Source: Pontibacter diazotrophicus (GTDB lineage Bacteria > Bacteroidota > Bacteroidia > Cytophagales > Hymenobacteraceae). Taken from it: a stretch of DNA of 64,000 nt. Below the pieces are notes generated by a model. The model searched no databases. It saw only the letters and a program-made list of their open reading frames with translations, and was not told the origin of the DNA. The stretch spans positions 124,001-188,000 of the forward strand of contig NZ_QRGR01000011.1 of the NCBI RefSeq assembly GCF_003367245.1, in the 5' to 3' direction. Position numbers and translations under genes: made by a program. Shown here one piece after another: positions 49,156 through 59,056 of this stretch (within the stretch, counting starts at the first letter, position 1; each line of letters begins with the position of its first letter).

Positions 49156-51483
49156 TTACTCAGCTTTCAAAACTTTTACAGGTTCAATTTGCGACGCTCG
49201 AATGGTTTGGGACAGGACAGTCAGAAGCCCGACTATGGCAACCAAACCAAAGCCTATGCTTACATTTATAAAACTTAAATCAACAAGACTGCTGCCTAAA
49301 TCTTGTCTAATTAAATCACCGCCAAACAAGCCAGCCGGAACACCAATAAGTCCGGCAATCAGGATAAGAATGCCAAAATTTCTGGTAACTGCCCACACCA
49401 ATTCTTTGTTGCTTGCTCCCAATACTTTTCTTATACCCAGTTCTTTAACACGTGTTTCTACGGAGTAACTTGCTATGCCTAAAATGCCCAAACCAGCGAT
49501 TATCATAACTATAAGGGCAAAGAATCCAAAAAAACCTATTCTTTCTCTACTGCTTGAATAACCATCTCTTAAATTTTGAAGGTTTGCTGTTTTTTCAGGA
49601 AAATGGTTTTTCCATAAGGTTTGAATGGCTTTGGTTGCTTCCAATTCTGTATTTGGCGTTATTTTTATGGTCAAGGTGGCTATTTCATTTGGCAAATACC
49701 GATACATTAAAGGAATTGTTTCGCCAATAATTTCATTGGGCATGATGCCAATGACTTGTACATAGGCAGAATCCAGTAATAGAGTTTGCCCCACTAAAGT
49801 CTCCGATTCAGACTCCATCAATTTTGCGGCAGTTTCATTCACCAACACATATTGCTCAATATTCTGGGGCATATCTTTAGGGAAAATTTGTCCCGATTTT
49901 AAGCTGATACCTTCTGTTTCAATTGTTTTCGGGTCAATACTTACGTAATTCATTTCCAGAATTTTATCATTTAATATTACAGAAGATTTGCCCATTTTAA
50001 TCGGTTTATAATACCAGTTAGTCGCCAAAGTTGTTTCTACCTGGCTTAACTGGCTTATTTCGTTTTGCAGGTTTTCATATTTTTCACCTTTTAAATCAAG
50101 TGTCAGGACATTGGGTGACACGGTTGAGCTAATGATTGCATGATTTTTTATTTCATAATCTGCTAATATGACAACCAATATCATCAGCATGATGGTCACT
50201 GAAAACTGTACGACAATTAAAGCTTTGTAAATAGCAATACTCTGGAACAGCTTAATATTCTTCATTTTACGCAAAACCTGTATGGGCTGAAACGCTGACA
50301 ACAGCCAAGACGGAAGTGCCCCTGCGACTAAGCCTGTGATAACTGCGTAGGTCAACAAACCTAAAATCAAGGTTGTATCATAAGAAAACGCCACATCCAT
50401 ATCGGGTATATAGTGCATTAAAATTTCAACACATGGCATTGTAAACAACAAAGCAAATAGGGAAATCAGGGTCGATTCCATTAAAAATTGACCAATAATC
50501 TGTCCTCTTGTTGCGCCTATCGTTTTGCGAATACCTACTTCTTTCGCTCGAGAGAAGGCACGCGCCAATGTCAAACTGATATAGTTGAAAGCAGATAAAA
50601 GGGTTAAGGCTAGAATCAAAAATAGCTGTGTTTTTATGCCCGTCCAATCGGTGCCCGCATCGAGGTCATTTTTAATGTCATTGTTTCGAGGGGTGATGTC
50701 TTCTATGGGTTGTGCCAAAAAATGAATATTGCTCTTATCCATTTTCCGATTATAGTTTTGGAGCGTTGTATTGAGCTGCTTTAAATCATCTTCTGATTTT
50801 AAACGTGCGTAAATTGCTGAACTCTTGAAGTCTCCCCAACTTTGTGAACTATTACTCAGTGCTCCTTTTTTTTCAAGCATTTCGGCAGCATTAATAGAAA
50901 GCATTGCCTCAATGGGTAGATGTGTTTCTAAAGGCGGGTCCTGGATAATTCCCTCAACGGTATAAGAACCTAAGTTTTCAAATCGAACCGTTTGCCCTAA
51001 AGCATTGGCGTTGCCAAATATCTTTTCTGCTGTTTTTTCAGTTAAAAAAAGGGTGGTGGGATTATTTGTAAGGCTTTGTGCATTACCTGACAACAATTTA
51101 AAGCCAAAAACATCAAAAAAAGAAGGCTCCGAAAATTTTATGTCAATAGGTATATCGCCACCGTCGGTTTGCAAGTTATGTTTTCCTGCCAAGCGTACTT
51201 TTACCGTTTTTTCAACAAAGGAGACACTTTCCATTTGAGGCGCTAATGGTAATGGAGCTGTTGCCCATTTGGTTTGTTCCCCCTCCTTTGTTTCCTGCGT
51301 GAGTATCCGTACTATTTGATTTAATTTTGGATGAAAATGGTCTGTATCGTGAGTGGCTTTTAGGCCTGTAAAAAGTATAACACCAACCGCCATACTCAGT
51401 GACAAGCTCAGTATATTGACTAATGAAAAAAGCTTGTTTTTCCAGAGTATCCGTATAGCGATTTTTAGATTGTCCTTTATCAT
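49156..51483 (-). CDS. ABC transporter permease of the MacB/FtsX type
   Basis: The 775-aa protein has two FtsX-type permease halves. An N-terminal helix (about residues 20-40) is followed by a large periplasmic domain. Membrane segments follow around 287-311 and 335-390, then a second periplasmic domain and the C-terminal FtsX domain with GFFALIVMIIAGLGILGIASY and VKELGIRKVLGASNKEL. Homologues take part in efflux or lipoprotein/peptide export with an ATPase and membrane-fusion partner. No ATPase is adjacent. Codon use is A+T-richer than neighbours such as the MNIO and RlaP genes, a sign of possible transfer. Confidence 0.88.
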   Translation of the reverse strand: MIKDNLKIAIRILWKNKLFSLVNILSLSLSMAVGVILFTGLKATHDTDHFHPKLNQIVRILTQETKEGEQTKWATAPLPLAPQMESVSFVEKTVKVRLAGKHNLQTDGGDIPIDIKFSEPSFFDVFGFKLLSGNAQSLTNNPTTLFLTEKTAEKIFGNANALGQTVRFENLGSYTVEGIIQDPPLETHLPIEAMLSINAAEMLEKKGALSNSSQSWGDFKSSAIYARLKSEDDLKQLNTTLQNYNRKMDKSNIHFLAQPIEDITPRNNDIKNDLDAGTDWTGIKTQLFLILALTLLSAFNYISLTLARAFSRAKEVGIRKTIGATRGQIIGQFLMESTLISLFALLFTMPCVEILMHYIPDMDVAFSYDTTLILGLLTYAVITGLVAGALPSWLLSAFQPIQVLRKMKNIKLFQSIAIYKALIVVQFSVTIMLMILVVILADYEIKNHAIISSTVSPNVLTLDLKGEKYENLQNEISQLSQVETTLATNWYYKPIKMGKSSVILNDKILEMNYVSIDPKTIETEGISLKSGQIFPKDMPQNIEQYVLVNETAAKLMESESETLVGQTLLLDSAYVQVIGIMPNEIIGETIPLMYRYLPNEIATLTIKITPNTELEATKAIQTLWKNHFPEKTANLQNLRDGYSSSRERIGFFGFFALIVMIIAGLGILGIASYSVETRVKELGIRKVLGASNKELVWAVTRNFGILILIAGLIGVPAGLFGGDLIRQDLGSSLVDLSFINVSIGFGLVAIVGLLTVLSQTIRASQIEPVKVLKAE

Positions 51484-51825: not shown

Positions 51826-52434
51826 TTGTTGCTAACGGCTTTGCAAGCACTCCTCACCCATGGTCAACTTAAAGAAGGAGAATCTGTTTTGATTAACGGT
51901 TCTTCAGGAGGTGTCGGCCATTTTGCCGTGCAAATTGCAAAGGCCTATGGCGCTAAAGTCACGGCTGTTTGTTCCAGTAAAAACATCAACTTTGTAAAGG
52001 CATTAGGTGCTGATCAAGTGGTTGCATACGATAAAGAAAGCATTCATCATCACGATGGGCATTACAACCTCATTATTAATACACACGGCAACCTTTCTTA
52101 TAAAGACTACAAACGCATGGGACAGCGAGGCGTCATCGTCGGTTTCACCACGATGGGGCATATGACTTCGCTTCTTTTACAAGGAAGAATAAGTAAATTT
52201 CCATTAGCCCAATTTACCGCTGAAGCCAACACAGCAGATCTAGAGACTTTGGCATTTTTAATTCGGGACCGAAAAATCAGAGTTCACTTAGAGAAGACTT
52301 ATTCTTATAAAGAAATTCCTGAAGCCATAAGCTATATTGAAGCTATGCGCACCAGAGGAAAGGTGGCGATGGTGTGGGAAAGCGTTGCCGGCACAGAAGA
52401 GGTTGATGCCGGACGAAATATCACATACAGCTAA
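51826..52434 (+). pseudogene. 5'-truncated MDR (zinc-type dehydrogenase/quinone reductase) gene
   Basis: The 202-aa open frame from a TTG covers only the cofactor-binding and C-terminal part of a medium-chain dehydrogenase. It opens TALQALLTHGQLKEGESV, which is normally about 110 residues into such proteins, and has the NAD(P) motif LINGSSGGVGHFAVQIAKAY. It ends with PEAISYIEAMRTRGKVAMVW. The GroES-like half is missing, and the sequence before the TTG (from 51781) stays open but does not resemble it. Thus it is a decayed fragment rather than a short functional gene. It is not a copy of the intact MDR at 25033. Confidence 0.7.
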
Positions 52435-52565: not shown

Positions 52566-53723
52566 TTACCGCTTCCACTTCTGTGCAATGCTGACGGCAG
52601 TCTCCAGCATGTGCGGCGCCCAGTTTTCAATTTTCCAATCAGAACCAGCCAGGGAAGACGTAAAGAGCAGTCGCCGGGCCTCTTCGTAGGAAGGTGCTGT
52701 TTCCAGGATGTGCGAGAGCTGCAGCTGTTGGTCGTGAAGCATATCATCCTCCACAACAGGGCCCGTCTGTAGAGGCTGTACCGGCAAAAAGAGATTATCA
52801 TCCTGCCTGGACAAGCTGCTTCTGCTCTTCTGTACCAACGCCTCCATCTTCAGAAAATCCTGACGGAAGCGGTTTCTGCTGCTTTCGGTCTTCAACCCAT
52901 TTCCCAATTGCTCCAGCACAACATATTTCAGGTTGGAGCACTTTGGCACCGTCAGTTCCAGCAGATGGAAAACCTCCTCCGGCACGGCGTCATCGTGGGT
53001 GTCCCTTCTTACCTTCTTCTCTGGTTCAAGCACAGAAGCCTCCCAGCTGCCTCCTGAAATATGGATTTCCCGCACACGATTCAGCGGGTACAGCGTGATC
53101 AGGTCTTCGTATGTAATGGAGAAATTATGGAGCTGGCAGTAGAGGTTGTGCAGGTCCAGTATAAGAAAGCCATTCACAGGCGCTACCAGCTTTTCCAGGA
53201 ATTCGCCATGTTGTTTCACTTCGTCCAGCGAGTAGGAAAAAGCCAGGTTCTCGAGCCCGACCGGGCATTGGCAGGCGTCGTAGATGCGGCTTAACCTGTC
53301 CTGCCCGATGCGCAAAGTGGTGCTGGTGTACGGCACATAGAGAGGAGCACCGGAATGGAAATTCTGTCCGGTAAAAAAACCGAAATGTTCGGTAATATGA
53401 TCAAAAGAATATTGTGAACTTAGTTGTTTCAGTTGTTCCAGCCAGTGCTGCTGCTCCTTTGTCCACTTGCCAGAGAGCAGGGAAAAGAACACGCCGTGAC
53501 CAATCAGCCTGCTTTGTTGGCTATAAGCAAGTAACAAATCAGTGAACCAGTAAGGCACCTGCGCTGCCCAATAGAGCGTATCGAAAGACCACTCAATGGC
53601 CTCTACCCTGCCCTCTTCCAGCAAAGGAAAAGCGGCAGATAGAATATCCGCATCTAAATTACAGGCAATCGTTGATAAGATTTCCGGCTCCTTCCCCACA
53701 GGATGTAGTTCTTTCCCGTTCAA
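52566..53723 (-). CDS. DUF692/MNIO multinuclear iron-dependent oxidase, probable RiPP-modifying enzyme
   Basis: The 385-aa protein matches the DUF692 TIM-barrel family (MbnB, TglH, ChrH). Candidate iron ligands are H76 in IGHGVFF, H113 in TEHFGFF, E158 in GLENLAFS, D190/H192 in LDLHNLY, H221 in EIHISGG, D241/H243 in DTHDD and E271 in VLEQ. The domain covers about residues 12-290; some 95 extra residues follow, possibly a fused partner domain. A known member class oxidises Cys in a peptide. The start is TTG 53723, in the same frame as the upstream peptide and one codon after its TAA. It shares an operon with that peptide. Confidence 0.85.
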   Translation of the reverse strand: MNGKELHPVGKEPEILSTIACNLDADILSAAFPLLEEGRVEAIEWSFDTLYWAAQVPYWFTDLLLAYSQQSRLIGHGVFFSLLSGKWTKEQQHWLEQLKQLSSQYSFDHITEHFGFFTGQNFHSGAPLYVPYTSTTLRIGQDRLSRIYDACQCPVGLENLAFSYSLDEVKQHGEFLEKLVAPVNGFLILDLHNLYCQLHNFSITYEDLITLYPLNRVREIHISGGSWEASVLEPEKKVRRDTHDDAVPEEVFHLLELTVPKCSNLKYVVLEQLGNGLKTESSRNRFRQDFLKMEALVQKSRSSLSRQDDNLFLPVQPLQTGPVVEDDMLHDQQLQLSHILETAPSYEEARRLLFTSSLAGSDWKIENWAPHMLETAVSIAQKWKR

Positions 53724-53726
53724 GGC

Positions 53727-53894
53727 TTAGCCCATGCCACAAGCCGGGCAGTTGTCCGGCACTTTCACAACCTCTTTCCCTTTCTCACCGCCCTGCTCCG
53801 TCCTGGGCCCGGGCAACTCTTCTTGTGTACAGCCCGTGGTTTGTACCGTAATGCCAACCAGTATGGCTCCGAGTAACGCTTTAGGTATTTTCAT
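53727..53894 (-). CDS. Signal-bearing precursor peptide ending in CPACGMG (candidate MNIO substrate)
   Basis: From ATG 53894 the product is 55 aa. It has an N-terminal basic/hydrophobic signal (KIPKALLGAILVGITVQ) and a lipobox-like TTGC with Cys22. A polar, Gly/Lys/Glu-rich spacer follows, then the C-terminal core DNCPACGMG with Cys49 and Cys52. An upstream in-frame ATG at 53972 would add 26 residues that spoil the signal, so I prefer 53894. A CxxC tail next to a DUF692 enzyme is the expected arrangement of an MNIO-modified peptide. The signal implies export. The modification itself is inferred. Confidence 0.75.
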   Translation of the reverse strand: MKIPKALLGAILVGITVQTTGCTQEELPGPRTEQGGEKGKEVVKVPDNCPACGMG

Positions 53895-54095
53895 GGCGAT
53901 ATAGCTTATTTTTGGTGCTGGTAAAAATTTCTTCTCACTTGGATGACCCTCATCCAGGAGCAAGGGTTGCATCTGTATTCAGAAAAGGGCTGAAACTTGA
54001 ATTTGGTATGCAATAACAGTGCTTTTTGCAGGTTTCGCTGTTAATAGAATATAGGATAAAGTCTTAGCATTTCAGGTGCAGCGGGAATTGATTTT

Positions 54096-54323
54096 ATGAA
54101 ATACAGAAATCCGCCGCTGCTGTTCCGGGAGCTGCTGCCACTGGTGAAGGGTCAGAACATCAGCAGCACGATTGACAGCATGCTCGAGCTAAAGGCAAGC
54201 GTTAACGAGAAATACCTGCACCCGAAAGAGGTGGAGCTGGAGGTCTATCTCAAAAGCACGCTTTACTACTGCGAGCAAAGGCAAATGAAATTGATGCACA
54301 GAAGGGCGAAACAGAGCCGCTAA
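54096..54323 (+). pseudogene. C-terminal fragment of a paired nucleotidyltransferase gene
   Basis: The 75-aa ORF reads PPLLFRELLPLVKGQNISST, DSMLELKASVNEKYLHP and a Tyr/Cys tail. In my memory this matches the C-terminal part of the nucleotidyltransferase that commonly precedes an RlaP-type gene, whose catalytic GSxxxG-DxD domain is missing here. The intact RlaP-like gene begins 31 bp downstream, so the pair arrangement persists. I judge it a truncated remnant. It could also be a genuine small protein; the absence of the catalytic domain is what I see. Confidence 0.5.
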
Positions 54324-54354: not shown

Positions 54355-55422
54355 ATGGCACTAACCATAGACGAGCTTAAGACAAAAAACCTGCTGCTGT
54401 TCGAGTGCATTAGCGGAAGCAGGGCTTATGGCCTGAGCACCCCTACTTCCGACACCGATATCCGGGGCGTATTCGTGCTGCCCGAGGAGGACTATTTTGG
54501 CCTGAACTACGTGGAGCAACTCAGCAACGAGAGCAACGACATTGTATACTATGAGCTGCGCCGTTTCGTAGAGCTGCTGGCTAAAAACAACCCCAACATG
54601 CTGGAGCTGCTGAACATGCCCGAAGACTGCATACTATACCAGCACCCGCTCTACAACAGGTTTAAGCCGCAGGACTTCCTCTCGAAGCTGTGCAAAAACA
54701 CCTTTGCTGGATACGCCCTCACGCAGGTGAAGAAGGCGAAGGGGCTGAACAAGAAGATAGTGAACCCGGTGGAGCCGGAGCGCAAGTCTGTGCTGGATTT
54801 CTGCTATGTGGCACAGGGACAGGGCTCGGTGCCGGTGCAGGAGTTCCTGGAGCAGCAGGACCTGCAACAGGAGGATTGCGGCCTGGCCCGCATCCCGCAC
54901 ATGCCAGACCTCTACGCGGTGTTTCATGACCCCGGCACAAACCTCAGGGGCATTGTGCAGAGCGAGGAATCCAATGATGTTTCGCTGAGCTCCATCCCCA
55001 AAGGGTTGCAGCCGCTGGCGGTAATGAGCTTCAACAAAAACGCCTACTCCACCTACTGCAAAGAATACAAGGAGTATTGGGACTGGGTAGAGAAGCGTAA
55101 CAATGCCCGCTACGAAAACACGCTCTCGCACGGCAAAAACTACGATGCCAAGAACCTGATGCACACCTTCCGCCTCCTCGACATGGCCGAAGAAATCGCC
55201 AGCCAGGGCCAGATCATCGTGCGCCGCCCGAACCGGGAATTCCTGCTCCAGATAAAAGCCGGTGCTTTTGAATATGCGGAATTACTGGCTATCGCCGAGG
55301 AACGCATTGCGAAGATGGATGCGCTGTATGCCGCGTCTGATTTGCCAGAGGAGCCAGATATGGAGCGGCTGAATAAAGTGTTGGTAGAGGTGCGGAGGGA
55401 GCTTTATTTAGAATTTCTATGA
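54355..55422 (+). CDS. RlaP-type nucleotidyltransferase (DNA polymerase beta superfamily)
   Basis: The 355-aa protein carries the nucleotidyltransferase motif FECISGSRAYGLSTPTSDTD (residues 16-35), with the GSRAYG and DTD metal site, then IRGVFVLPEEDYFGL. Conserved C-terminal parts are MSFNKNAYSTYC, NARYENTLSHGKNYDAKNLMH and the final VNRPNREF-like region (RRPNREFLLQIKAG). RlaP proteins are linked to RNA-repair ligases in some bacteria; no ligase is seen here. It is preceded by a truncated relative. Its GC-rich, strongly biased codon use contrasts with the permease region. Confidence 0.9.
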   Translation: MALTIDELKTKNLLLFECISGSRAYGLSTPTSDTDIRGVFVLPEEDYFGLNYVEQLSNESNDIVYYELRRFVELLAKNNPNMLELLNMPEDCILYQHPLYNRFKPQDFLSKLCKNTFAGYALTQVKKAKGLNKKIVNPVEPERKSVLDFCYVAQGQGSVPVQEFLEQQDLQQEDCGLARIPHMPDLYAVFHDPGTNLRGIVQSEESNDVSLSSIPKGLQPLAVMSFNKNAYSTYCKEYKEYWDWVEKRNNARYENTLSHGKNYDAKNLMHTFRLLDMAEEIASQGQIIVRRPNREFLLQIKAGAFEYAELLAIAEERIAKMDALYAASDLPEEPDMERLNKVLVEVRRELYLEFL

Positions 55423-57496: not shown

Positions 57497-58213
57497 ATGA
57501 TAAAGTTTACCAGTTTTAAAGGAAAGGATTACAAGCCCGATGAAAGGCTTGGTAAGTCCCGCAGGTCTTTCCTGCAGTACAGCGGGGCCGCACTGGCCAC
57601 ATCCGCTATTTTACTCTCCGGCTGCGAGGTGCTGGAGGAATATATTCCACCGAAGAACCCCAACTCTCCCAAGAAAGTGAACCTGGGCAGCGGGGACATC
57701 GGCATCCTCAACTATGCCTATGCCCTGGAGCAGCTGGAGGCAGCCTTCTATACCAAGGTAGCGCTATTAGGCTTTTACATCGGTGCGAGTCCTGAGGAAA
57801 TAAGGGTGCTGGAGGATTTGCGACAGCACGAGGTGGCACACCGGGAGTTCTATGAGGCGGCGTTGGGCAAGAACGCCATTGGTAAGCTGGAGTTCGACTT
57901 CAGCATGGTTGACTTCAGAGACAGAAACAGTGTGCTGCAGACTGCCAAGACCTTCGAGGACCTGGGCGTGGCGGCTTATAACGGTGCTGGCCCTCTCCTT
58001 GAGAACCCCGATTTCCTGGTAGTGGCAGGTAAAATCGTGTCGGTGGAGGCGCGGCATGCAACTGCCATATACGACCTTATCGATCCTAGTGCGGCGTTTG
58101 TGGACTTCATTGATGATGGCCTGGAGCGGGCTTTCCTCCCTATGCAGGTGCTGCAGATGGCCGCCCCTTTCATTGTGACGGAGATTGACGCGAGTAATTT
58201 ACCAACAGCTTAA
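57497..58213 (+). CDS. Tat-exported ferritin-like protein (lipoprotein)
   Basis: The 238-aa protein begins with a twin-arginine signal, RR at residues 22-23 in SRRSFLQYSG. A hydrophobic helix and a lipobox Cys43 (ILLSGC) follow, so it is probably exported folded and lipidated. The mature domain is a ferritin-like four-helix bundle with iron-ligand candidates in YALEQLEAAFY, RQHEVAHREFYE, AKTFEDLGVAAYNG and VEARHA (E, H and E-x-x-H). This is the pattern of the desiccation-related PCC13-62 type. It may store or oxidise iron or handle peroxide; not proven. It is the first of two such genes, 15 bp apart. Confidence 0.88.
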   Translation: MIKFTSFKGKDYKPDERLGKSRRSFLQYSGAALATSAILLSGCEVLEEYIPPKNPNSPKKVNLGSGDIGILNYAYALEQLEAAFYTKVALLGFYIGASPEEIRVLEDLRQHEVAHREFYEAALGKNAIGKLEFDFSMVDFRDRNSVLQTAKTFEDLGVAAYNGAGPLLENPDFLVVAGKIVSVEARHATAIYDLIDPSAAFVDFIDDGLERAFLPMQVLQMAAPFIVTEIDASNLPTA

Positions 58214-58228
58214 CCGGAGGACACTATT

Positions 58229-59056
58229 ATGGAGTTTATAAAACTATTCAATTCTTTCAACACTGATAATAGGTCGGAAGAAGAAGTGGACACCTACATG
58301 TCCAGGAAAGAGGCTTTCAAGAAACTGGGAGGCCTGACTAAAAAAGTGGCACTTGCCTCTTTGCCGGTGGCGGCCTTCACCGTTATGCCTAAAATGGCTT
58401 TTGCCCGGGCGCATGATGTGATAGCCGTGCTGAAGTTCGCACTGACCCTGGAGCGGCTGGAGTATCAGTTCTATATAGAGGGTGTAAACTCAGGGATCAT
58501 CAGCAGCCAGCACCAGAACGTATTCATGGCCATCCGGGAGCACGAGCGTATCCATGTGGAGCTGCTGGAGGCGACTATCCAGTCGTTGGGCGGAAGCCTG
58601 GACGGTGTGCCGAGCATGTTCGATTATACCGCAGACGGCGTGTTCCCAAGTCCTTTCGGCAATTACCAGCTTTTCCTGGCCCTGTCGCAGGCGTTTGAGG
58701 ACACAGGCGTGAGAGCCTACAAAGGACAGGCCCCGAATCTGATGGAGAATGACGACTTGCTGAAAGTGGCGCTGCAGATTCACGCAGTTGAAGCTCGCCA
58801 TGCCTCACAGGTAAGGCGCATCCGCGGAAGAAAAGGCTGGATAACAGAAGAGGACTATGACGGCATTGATGGCTTTGGCTCGACCTTCATGATGGCCAGC
58901 AGCGCCGTGTACGCCGGTGAGAAAAACACGATGCATGTGGGTGTGGAAGTGACTGACGTGACAACGGTGCCGGTGATGGCAGTGAGGGAGGCATGGGATG
59001 AGCCGTTATCTATGCAGATGGTTGTAGACATTGTTACGCCCTTTATCGTGTCGTAA
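58229..59056 (+). CDS. Second ferritin-like protein, Sec/Tat-type signal
   Basis: The 275-aa protein has a signal with SRKEAFKKLG (RK rather than RR), a hydrophobic stretch and AFA at 57-59, perhaps a cleavage site. The mature domain is again ferritin-like: LKFALTLERLEYQFY, REHERIHVELLE, LSQAFEDTGVRAYKG and HAVEARHASQVRRIRG. It resembles the upstream gene in design, but the C-terminal part (GFGSTFMMASSAVYAG) is extra. The genes are 15 bp apart and surely one operon. Function as above, unproven. Confidence 0.88.
   Translation: MEFIKLFNSFNTDNRSEEEVDTYMSRKEAFKKLGGLTKKVALASLPVAAFTVMPKMAFARAHDVIAVLKFALTLERLEYQFYIEGVNSGIISSQHQNVFMAIREHERIHVELLEATIQSLGGSLDGVPSMFDYTADGVFPSPFGNYQLFLALSQAFEDTGVRAYKGQAPNLMENDDLLKVALQIHAVEARHASQVRRIRGRKGWITEEDYDGIDGFGSTFMMASSAVYAGEKNTMHVGVEVTDVTTVPVMAVREAWDEPLSMQMVVDIVTPFIVS

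Follow-up and report, generated by a model that had tools for sequence, protein, structure and literature searches.

Which kind of peptide is made, under which regulator and for which place in the cell, when a short precursor gene stands alone with the gene of an MNIO (DUF692) enzyme? A 64,000-nucleotide stretch of the Pontibacter diazotrophicus genome (contig NZ_QRGR01000011.1, positions 124,001 to 188,000; hereafter the window) contains such a pair. The first-pass annotation had proposed an MNIO/DUF692 enzyme next to an exported precursor with a C-terminal core, that is, a locus for a ribosomally synthesized and post-translationally modified peptide (RiPP). Profile matches (PF05114, NF050125) and related loci bore this out, and both reading frames, their coordinates and residues proved correct on the minus strand. 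The pair probably represents a two-gene DAG-RiPP unit of the DybA/DybH type, which would be read from a promoter for a sigma factor of extracytoplasmic function (ECF) and would yield a surface lipopeptide belonging to a Das/Dma-like envelope regulon. New in this analysis are the conservation of the signal peptide, the ECF-type promoter, its three genomic copies, and the serpin and Kunitz-like company of such promoters in relatives.

The precursor, its enzyme and their known relatives

The precursor gene lies at 53727-53894 (minus strand; 55 codons plus the stop at 53727-53729) and encodes MKIPKALLGAILVGITVQTTGCTQEELPGPRTEQGGEKGKEVVKVPDNCPACGMG. An upstream start was also given by the caller of open reading frames (81 residues); the 26 additional residues are divergent from those of Pontibacter pamirensis, whereas the 55-residue form differs at one position. 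The enzyme gene (52566-53723, minus strand, 385 residues) starts with TTG at 53723, 3 nt past the precursor stop, and its first in-frame ATG is found only deep within the conserved part. Pairwise dN/dS values against P. pamirensis were 0.06 for the peptide (few sites) and 0.13 for the enzyme.

Along its full length (positions 1-56 of 56) the NCBIfam profile NF050125, "chryseobasin-related MNIO class RiPP peptide", was matched by the precursor with 84.7 bits at a cut-off of 40. The C-terminal heptad CPACGMG (residues 49-55; 53730-53750, minus strand), the site modified in DybA and ChrA (PMC12636315), is identical in 61 of 85 precursors, the window's included. It equals the published, highly conserved ChrA core in a logo of 115 biosynthetic gene clusters (BGCs; PMC10214503), an identity about which the first-pass annotation had been uncertain. 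Residues 1-21 (MKIPKALLGAILVGITVQTTG; 53832-53894, minus strand) fit, by pattern only, a lipoprotein signal of the signal peptidase II type (SPII) with the lipobox TTG-C22. The proposed export signal was thus upheld in this form, and a Cys after a signal-like stretch is found by pattern in 84 of the 85 precursors. Cys22 (53829-53831, minus strand), the predicted lipidated residue, corresponds to the lipobox Cys of DybA as read in the Dyadobacter crusticola precursor (locus L099); the Cys of DybA is lipidated (triacylation) in E. coli (PMC12636315).

The enzyme passed the DUF692 profile check that had been suggested for it, matching PF05114 (MbnB_TglH_ChrH) with 105.8 bits (cut-off 25) and with conserved ligands. 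This match covers the MNIO barrel part (residues 64-271; 52911-53534, minus strand) with its conserved His/Asp/Glu set, and all nine candidate ligands singled out earlier (H76, H113, E158, D190, H192, H221, D241, H243, E271) were invariant in a 10-sequence alignment. Eight of the nine align with an identical residue in TglH of Pseudomonas syringae (8hci/8hi7), and the counterpart of H76 is a His in the DUF692 structure 3bww. All seven top PDB matches of the AlphaFold2 model (mean pLDDT 79.8, pTM 0.82) were TglH, 3bww or MbnB, with TglH 8hi7 first. The model further displayed a C-terminal helical domain (residues 327-384; 52572-52745, minus strand; helices 327-342, 346-355 and 370-384), which is said to mark the ChrH subfamily (PMC12636315). 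Among the subfamily models NF050165 (MNIO_ChrH) fitted best, and scores with the BufB, HvfB, ApyH and MbnB models were far weaker; together with the shared core, this corroborated the suspected kinship to ChrA/ChrH.

A scan of named genomes returned 195 relatives, the best 80 of which were fetched as loci. As the first-pass annotation had expected of a true pair, precursor and enzyme were conserved together: 84 precursors ending in CPxCGxG-stop were found 5' of the enzyme in 77 of the 80 loci (the other three, L031, L071 and L080, did not enter the analyses of promoter and signal). The full-length enzyme occurs in the window's genome and in 9 of 98 relatives (4 of 49 within the genus), with three more weak partial matches. 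CPxCG[NTN]G-stop sites, with a hydrophobic sixth residue, were detected in 11 of 99 genomes, in nine of these next to the enzyme gene; the one remaining enzyme, that of G052, is adjoined by CPACGRG. Across 395 genomes of the phylum, six enzyme matches exceeded 300 bits, one of them cut with an internal stop, and all five intact ones had the motif adjacent. The 6.4-Mb genome of the window holds a single CPxCG[NTN]G-stop site and no further precursor of this pattern, outside which other sixth codons fall. Near the pair, no other gene family (families were clustered, not annotated) recurred at more than 17 of 81 loci, and we therefore regard the pair as mostly standing alone. L115 (G143) has a ChrH-like frame near a contig start with one in-frame stop, its profile match ending at position 289.

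In a tree of 81 enzymes, those of the window and of P. pamirensis (93% identity) were nested among Hymenobacter and Hymenobacteraceae enzymes; the two enzymes above the ChrH cut-off, called Chryseobacterium-type by this model alone, were separate at 100/100 support. All four Pontibacter loci (window, L026, L037 and L052) have RlaP neighbours. Of these, the enzymes from the window and from P. pamirensis fall within Hymenobacter and the other two branch outside, which may reflect either replacement at one site or weak resolution of the tree.

Two-gene units of this kind are already on record. The DAG-RiPP class was described in 2025 as short precursors with a third, lipobox Cys and a lone MNIO, in Bacteroidota such as Dyadobacter (PMC12636315). 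Like the window pair, DybA/DybH of D. crusticola and HymA/HymH of Hymenobacter gelipurpurascens combine a lipobox Cys, a short linker and a C-terminal CPxCGxG with an adjoining MNIO that has a C-terminal helical domain, and with no obvious partner gene (PMC12636315); the genera differ from that of the window. The enzyme of D. crusticola DSM 16708, the DybH host, is 58% identical to the window enzyme (locus L099), and the precursor at this locus agrees with the residue numbers M26-D27 and A46 of DybA (PMC12636315). A -4 Da change was established for DybA, ChsA and HymA with their enzymes DybH, ChsH and HymH, and NMR of the DybA product revealed a macrocycle and a hydantoin, made by DybH alone without a partner protein (PMC12636315). 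ChrA/ChrH of Chryseobacterium, the chryseobasin system, has the core CPACGMG and the enzyme subfamily in common with the window, but differs in its longer precursor, signal of the signal peptidase I type (SPI), S-methylated +10 Da product and larger operon with ChrI, ChrE and ChrP (PMC10214503). Both window proteins fall below the strict chryseobasin cut-offs, NF050165 for the enzyme and NF050124 for the precursor (25.5 bits, cut-off 50). The check for an operon with ChrI, ChrE and ChrP covered the nearest larger frames, namely a MacB/FtsX permease, part of a dehydrogenase and RlaP-type genes. Because PMC12636315 and NF050125 cover it, the pair is a further case of a published RiPP kind. The "possibly undescribed variant" of the first-pass annotation was accordingly given up: minimal units of a lipoprotein-signal precursor and an MNIO had been published (PMC12636315), and NF050125 takes the window precursor. 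The main text of PMC12636315 contains neither the name Pontibacter nor a mention of promoter or regulation, its authors state that the function of DAG-RiPPs is unknown, and no later paper on the group was found in the open-licence PMC literature.

The first-pass annotation had also called the locus copper- or metal-related. A peptide that handles copper or another metal, as bufferins, oxazolins and methanobactin do, would agree with the enzyme superfamily (PF05114), with the Cys-x-x-Cys of the core, with the lipoprotein signals of some bufferins (PMC12452194), and with relatives of Saprospiraceae type that have added Cys and Asp/Asn-His stretches, absent from the window peptide. Bufferins resemble the window pair in joining an MNIO to an exported precursor, but have another core, and a DUF2063 partner and DoxX in their published BGCs (PMC12452194). 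Moreover, the enzyme reached only 87.6 bits with the BufB model NF050167 (cut-off 310) and 73.4 bits with PRK05409/HvfB (cut-off 360), the EGKCG repeat is absent from the sequence, and the DybA product has one free thiol and lacks absorbance of this kind (PMC12636315). The neighbouring families, none of them near more than 17 of the 81 loci, were clustered and not annotated, which leaves room for a metal gene close by. We consider a metal-handling role highly improbable, and the metal-related label was not retained for want of support.

An ECF-type promoter and its genomic copies

Upstream of the pair, a bipartite ECF-type promoter, TGCAACC-N15-GGGTCAT, was recognized at 53943-53971 (minus strand), its first base lying 77 nt ahead of the ATG of the precursor; it is kept across three aligned Pontibacter upstream regions. 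A two-block expectation-maximisation search of 78 upstream regions came unprompted upon CAACC, a spacer of 15 or 16 and a TC-centred box, with a log-likelihood of 264 as compared to 65-67 in three shuffled sets. In 48 of the 78 loci the posterior was at least 0.95, and the site was located 52-112 nt before the ATG. The spacing of AAC and GTC is that of ECF sigma promoters in general. A housekeeping promoter (consensus TTG/TAnnTTTG) was rejected, since both boxes together occurred in none of the 78 regions and TAnnTTTG in 8 (7.5 expected).

The strict pattern TGCAACSN{15,16}GRRTCAT has exactly three sites in the 6.4-Mb genome, and the reversed pattern has none. One precedes the window pair, one an ECF sigma gene outside the window, and the third lies 2.35 kb further on, after the sigma's neighbour, where it precedes a 35-codon frame and a small lipoprotein gene. 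Eleven genomes of the genus gave 35 sites and 2 reversed ones. Eight of these 11 showed the site of the sigma itself, among them 5 of the 6 searched that lack the RiPP, and 4 of 5 RiPP-bearing genomes showed the RiPP site. The candidate sigma (G000:C70; L157:5083-5688) matches PF04542 (43.4 bits, cut-off 24) and PF08281 (59.2 bits, cut-off 25.7), which cover sigma regions 2 and 4. Its neighbour, the presumed anti-sigma, has 571 residues, a transmembrane helix near residue 57 (hydropathy) and a C-terminal OMP_b-brl_2 barrel (PF13568 at 346-533, 28.5 bits, cut-off 27). Das/Dma of Bacteroides shows the same layout, an ECF sigma and next to it a protein made up of an N-terminal part, a transmembrane helix, a long middle and a C-terminal barrel (PMC13088901). 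In B. thetaiotaomicron, the dual membrane-spanning anti-sigmas Dma1 and Dma2 control vesicle formation together with the ECF21 sigmas Das1 and Das2, and das2 rises upon deletion of dma2 (PMC13088901).

Relatives of the sigma were present in all 35 RiPP-bearing genomes searched (34 best-match loci were fetched in addition to the window's own genome), which the size of the family would lead one to expect. In front of the sigma gene, the motif surpassed random windows at P<0.01 in 17 of the 34 and in 16 of the 23 closest; these P values are rough because the random windows came from one flank each and were not restricted to intergenic DNA. A site scoring at least 12 was observed for 22 of the 24 closest orthologues (own genome included; L204 and L210 reached 4.7 and 8.9) and for 23 of all 35, and ten genes of another ECF-like cluster, from RiPP flanks, scored at most 10.4. 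When RiPP, orthologue and paralogue sites were compared at 16 positions, dropping paralogue sites below 9 and thereby leaving 15 of 16 genomes, the RiPP site was nearer to the orthologue's in 12, nearer to the paralogue's in 2 and tied in one (sign test P=0.013, related genomes counted singly). Among the 20 genomes with both sites at 12 or more, the likeness of sigma and RiPP sites within a genome was 0.671 versus 0.623 in shuffled pairs (P=0.007), mostly a genus effect.

Several observations weigh against assigning the pair to this family and regulon. The enzyme's 403.7 bits fall short of the NF050165 cut-off of 600. In 30 of the 78 loci, most Chitinophaga among them, the precursor has a weak motif or none in front of it; in the RiPP-bearing genome G002 no site was found at the RiPP under the genus pattern; and the link between Dma and vesicles comes from B. 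thetaiotaomicron only (PMC13088901). As many as 13 of 20 ECF paralogues also score 12 or more, which indicates that the promoter class is shared in the ECF group. By score alone, orthologues and paralogues did not clearly differ (Fisher P=0.057; Mann-Whitney P=0.14, or 0.97 with all 35), and in Dyadobacter the RiPP site was nearer to the paralogue's in 2 of 3 genomes. The paralogue data agree with the alternative of a genuine promoter that is served by a different ECF sigma from this group, in which case the C70 link and the co-regulated genes would be wrong for this species. Against it speak the three strict sites of the own genome, all located at the C70 sigma, after its neighbour or at the RiPP, the agreement of the site after the neighbour with the RiPP site at 15 of 16 compared positions, and the -10 box of Hymenobacter RiPP sites, which follows that of the C70-type orthologue. 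We consider this alternative rather unlikely. Judging from the sites, members of the ECF group are told apart by the -10 box and by the bases before CAACC. We regard a link of the C70-type sigma to the RiPP as likely for Hymenobacteraceae and Spirosoma and as undecided for Dyadobacter; most Chitinophaga show no sign of it.

Further genes follow such sites in relatives (the genome of L029 was left out of the site search). Serpin lipoproteins (PF00079, 348-400 bits) were found in two genomes of the genus, in one Hymenobacter and in Dyadobacter psychrophilus. In the RiPP-bearing G002 a 63-codon frame with a partial Kunitz domain (PF00014, profile positions 1-37 of 53, 48.7 bits, cut-off 21) and no signal as read was detected; an LVIVD lipoprotein in Dyadobacter and several small lipoproteins complete this set. 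Sites of the Hymenobacter group precede SurA-like proteins (twice), a BamD-like lipoprotein, an FKBP, a Kelch lipoprotein and a response regulator with PglZ domain (twice). The Hymenobacter pattern gave 47 sites versus 8 reversed in 12 genomes, so about one sixth of its matches may be due to chance, and some precede frames of unclear placement. Protease inhibitors together with outer-membrane folding factors suggest an envelope alarm.

Two candidate members of the regulon were rejected. A near-invariant 30-mer begins some 40-47 nt upstream of uppS in 11 of 12 genomes of the Hymenobacter group (L256, L263, L264, L270, L271, L309, L310, L313, L315, L317 and L319) and holds an inverted repeat, TTTGCGTAA...TTACGCAAA in L263; among 29 other genomes only one, which is not the window's, had a site there (P<0.02). 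The site assigned to BamA in G014 lies inside uppS, provided that G014 is the G492 assembly, as matching coordinates suggest.

A conserved lipoprotein-type signal

In 78 of the 84 precursor frames, the choice of start is no issue because only one Met lies 14-34 residues before the lipid Cys. In all 78, position 7 is L/V, position 8 L/I and position 14 G/A; position 10 is A/T in 77, and position 5 is Lys in 67. Information at these five positions amounted to 3.4-4.0 bits, compared with 0.9-1.3 bits in 67 control signals, which were lipoprotein-like, taken by pattern from the same flanks, and biased in start choice at positions 2-4. Aromatic residues (F/W/Y) occurred in 3 of 84 precursor signals versus 56 of 67 controls. 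Since the precursors are homologous and the controls are not, part of this conservation is kinship; the linker from signal to core has widely diverged in the same peptides. Two ChrH-type precursors start with MKIPAILMASLLAV and MKIPALLMASLLAV. Relaxed selection on the N-terminus is a suggestion of PMC12636315. Within the present precursor group the data say otherwise: the signal is conserved far beyond that of control lipoproteins. Slow export by a weakly hydrophobic signal was dismissed, the hydrophobicity being like that of control lipoproteins (P=0.11).

The signal peptide might, tentatively, double as a leader that is read by the enzyme or a membrane partner, so that modification and export would be coupled. 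The restricted positions and the scarcity of aromatics are in agreement with such a role, as is the tandem paralogue L072_1, which keeps the conserved N-terminus (MKVxxxLLQA) without a lipobox Cys. The unremarkable hydrophobicity argues against it, and DybH modifies CPACGMG on GFP, where no leader is needed (PMC12636315). At six loci (L060, L063, L072, L084, L092 and L097) two to three tandem precursors stand ahead of one enzyme. Precursors of the Saprospiraceae type (L066, L067, L068, L070, L073, L081, L083, L090, L095 and L101) carry, between lipid Cys and core, extra Cys and an acidic or Asn-His stretch, e.g. TCAEDCQLDH, a possible metal site.

The residues TQEE after Cys22 (53817-53828, minus strand) resemble the Bacteroidota surface-export signal C-x-[K/Q]-(D/E)2 (PMC5080379). 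The form C-x-[KQ]-[DE]-[DE] was present in 17 of 84 precursors and in 3 of 67 control lipoproteins (Fisher P=0.007, homologues counted singly); the window has C-TQEE and P. flavimaris C-QKDD, and most family members are outside the strict form. Surface-export signals accompany packing into vesicles in Bacteroides (PMC6222051).

Probable fate of the lipopeptide, neighbouring genes and meaning

Taken as a two-gene DAG-RiPP unit of an envelope regulon, the pair could work as follows. Disturbance of the outer membrane would make the Dma-like anti-sigma free its ECF sigma, most likely G000:C70, which would transcribe its own operon, the small lipoprotein gene and, from the conserved promoter, the window pair. 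By analogy with the family, the cytosolic MNIO would take four hydrogens from CPACGMG without a partner, leaving a macrocycle and a hydantoin (-4 Da). As with DybA in E. coli, Lgt, LspA and Lnt would then lipidate Cys22 and remove the signal, and the lipopeptide would reach the outer membrane, probably facing outwards at the cell surface with the aid of the acidic TQEE. The pair would then belong to the small target set of a vesicle-linked switch that senses the surface and that in relatives would also command protease inhibitors and small lipoproteins. Both the involvement of vesicles and a protective action of the lipopeptide are conjectured from these parallels.

Alternatively, the lipopeptide might be released, cleaved and put to use as an antibiotic or signal, with SusCD-type re-import or ABC export. 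The authors of PMC12636315 noted nearby SusCD genes and a ring like the lantibiotic B ring; the largest other family in our loci (17 of 81) looks SusC-like by eye in the member nearest to the pair, and the window has, some 1.1 kb downstream of the pair, a MacB/FtsX-type permease (49156-51483, minus strand). However, the permease family is near only 6 of 81 loci, an opposite-strand frame separates permease and pair, and no protease or transporter family recurs at the majority of loci. We therefore deem release unlikely and favour a lipopeptide that stays on the surface.

Between permease and pair, a 202-codon frame (51826-52434) matches C-terminal domains of zinc-binding dehydrogenases only (PF13602, PF00107) and is possibly a remnant. 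On the other side, a divergent 75-codon frame (54096-54323) clusters with a 253-residue frame at the same place in L026 and matches, weakly, only the C-terminal part of RlaP; the adjoining RlaP-type gene (54355-55422, 355 residues) is whole. The DNA between the RlaP-type frames and the RiPP promoter is missing in the window, the promoter itself being retained. At 57497-59056 two adjacent ferritin-like genes follow (PF13668, 129.9 and 108.8 bits); by eye, the start of the first looks twin-arginine-like.

With the pair, the RiPP class gains one more host. Its promoter and the few genomic copies point to a candidate regulator, to a possible inducer in the form of a released Dma-type anti-sigma, and to genes that may be co-regulated, namely serpins, the Kunitz-like frame and small lipoproteins, and the conserved signal peptide runs against the published idea of relaxed selection on the N-terminus. 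More speculatively, DAG-RiPPs could be plug-in effectors of a conserved Bacteroidota surface alarm, in which Dma-type anti-sigmas, reaching through both membranes, would sense attack on the outer membrane and set free their ECF sigmas. The alarm switch need not depend on the peptide, because 5 of the 6 RiPP-less genomes of the genus that were searched keep the sigma site. If this holds true, the cell would present on its surface, and might also release with vesicles, a protective set of lipoproteins made up of serpins, a Kunitz-type inhibitor, small lipoproteins and the macrocyclic lipopeptide, and the lipopeptide itself would act on proteases or other envelope attackers.

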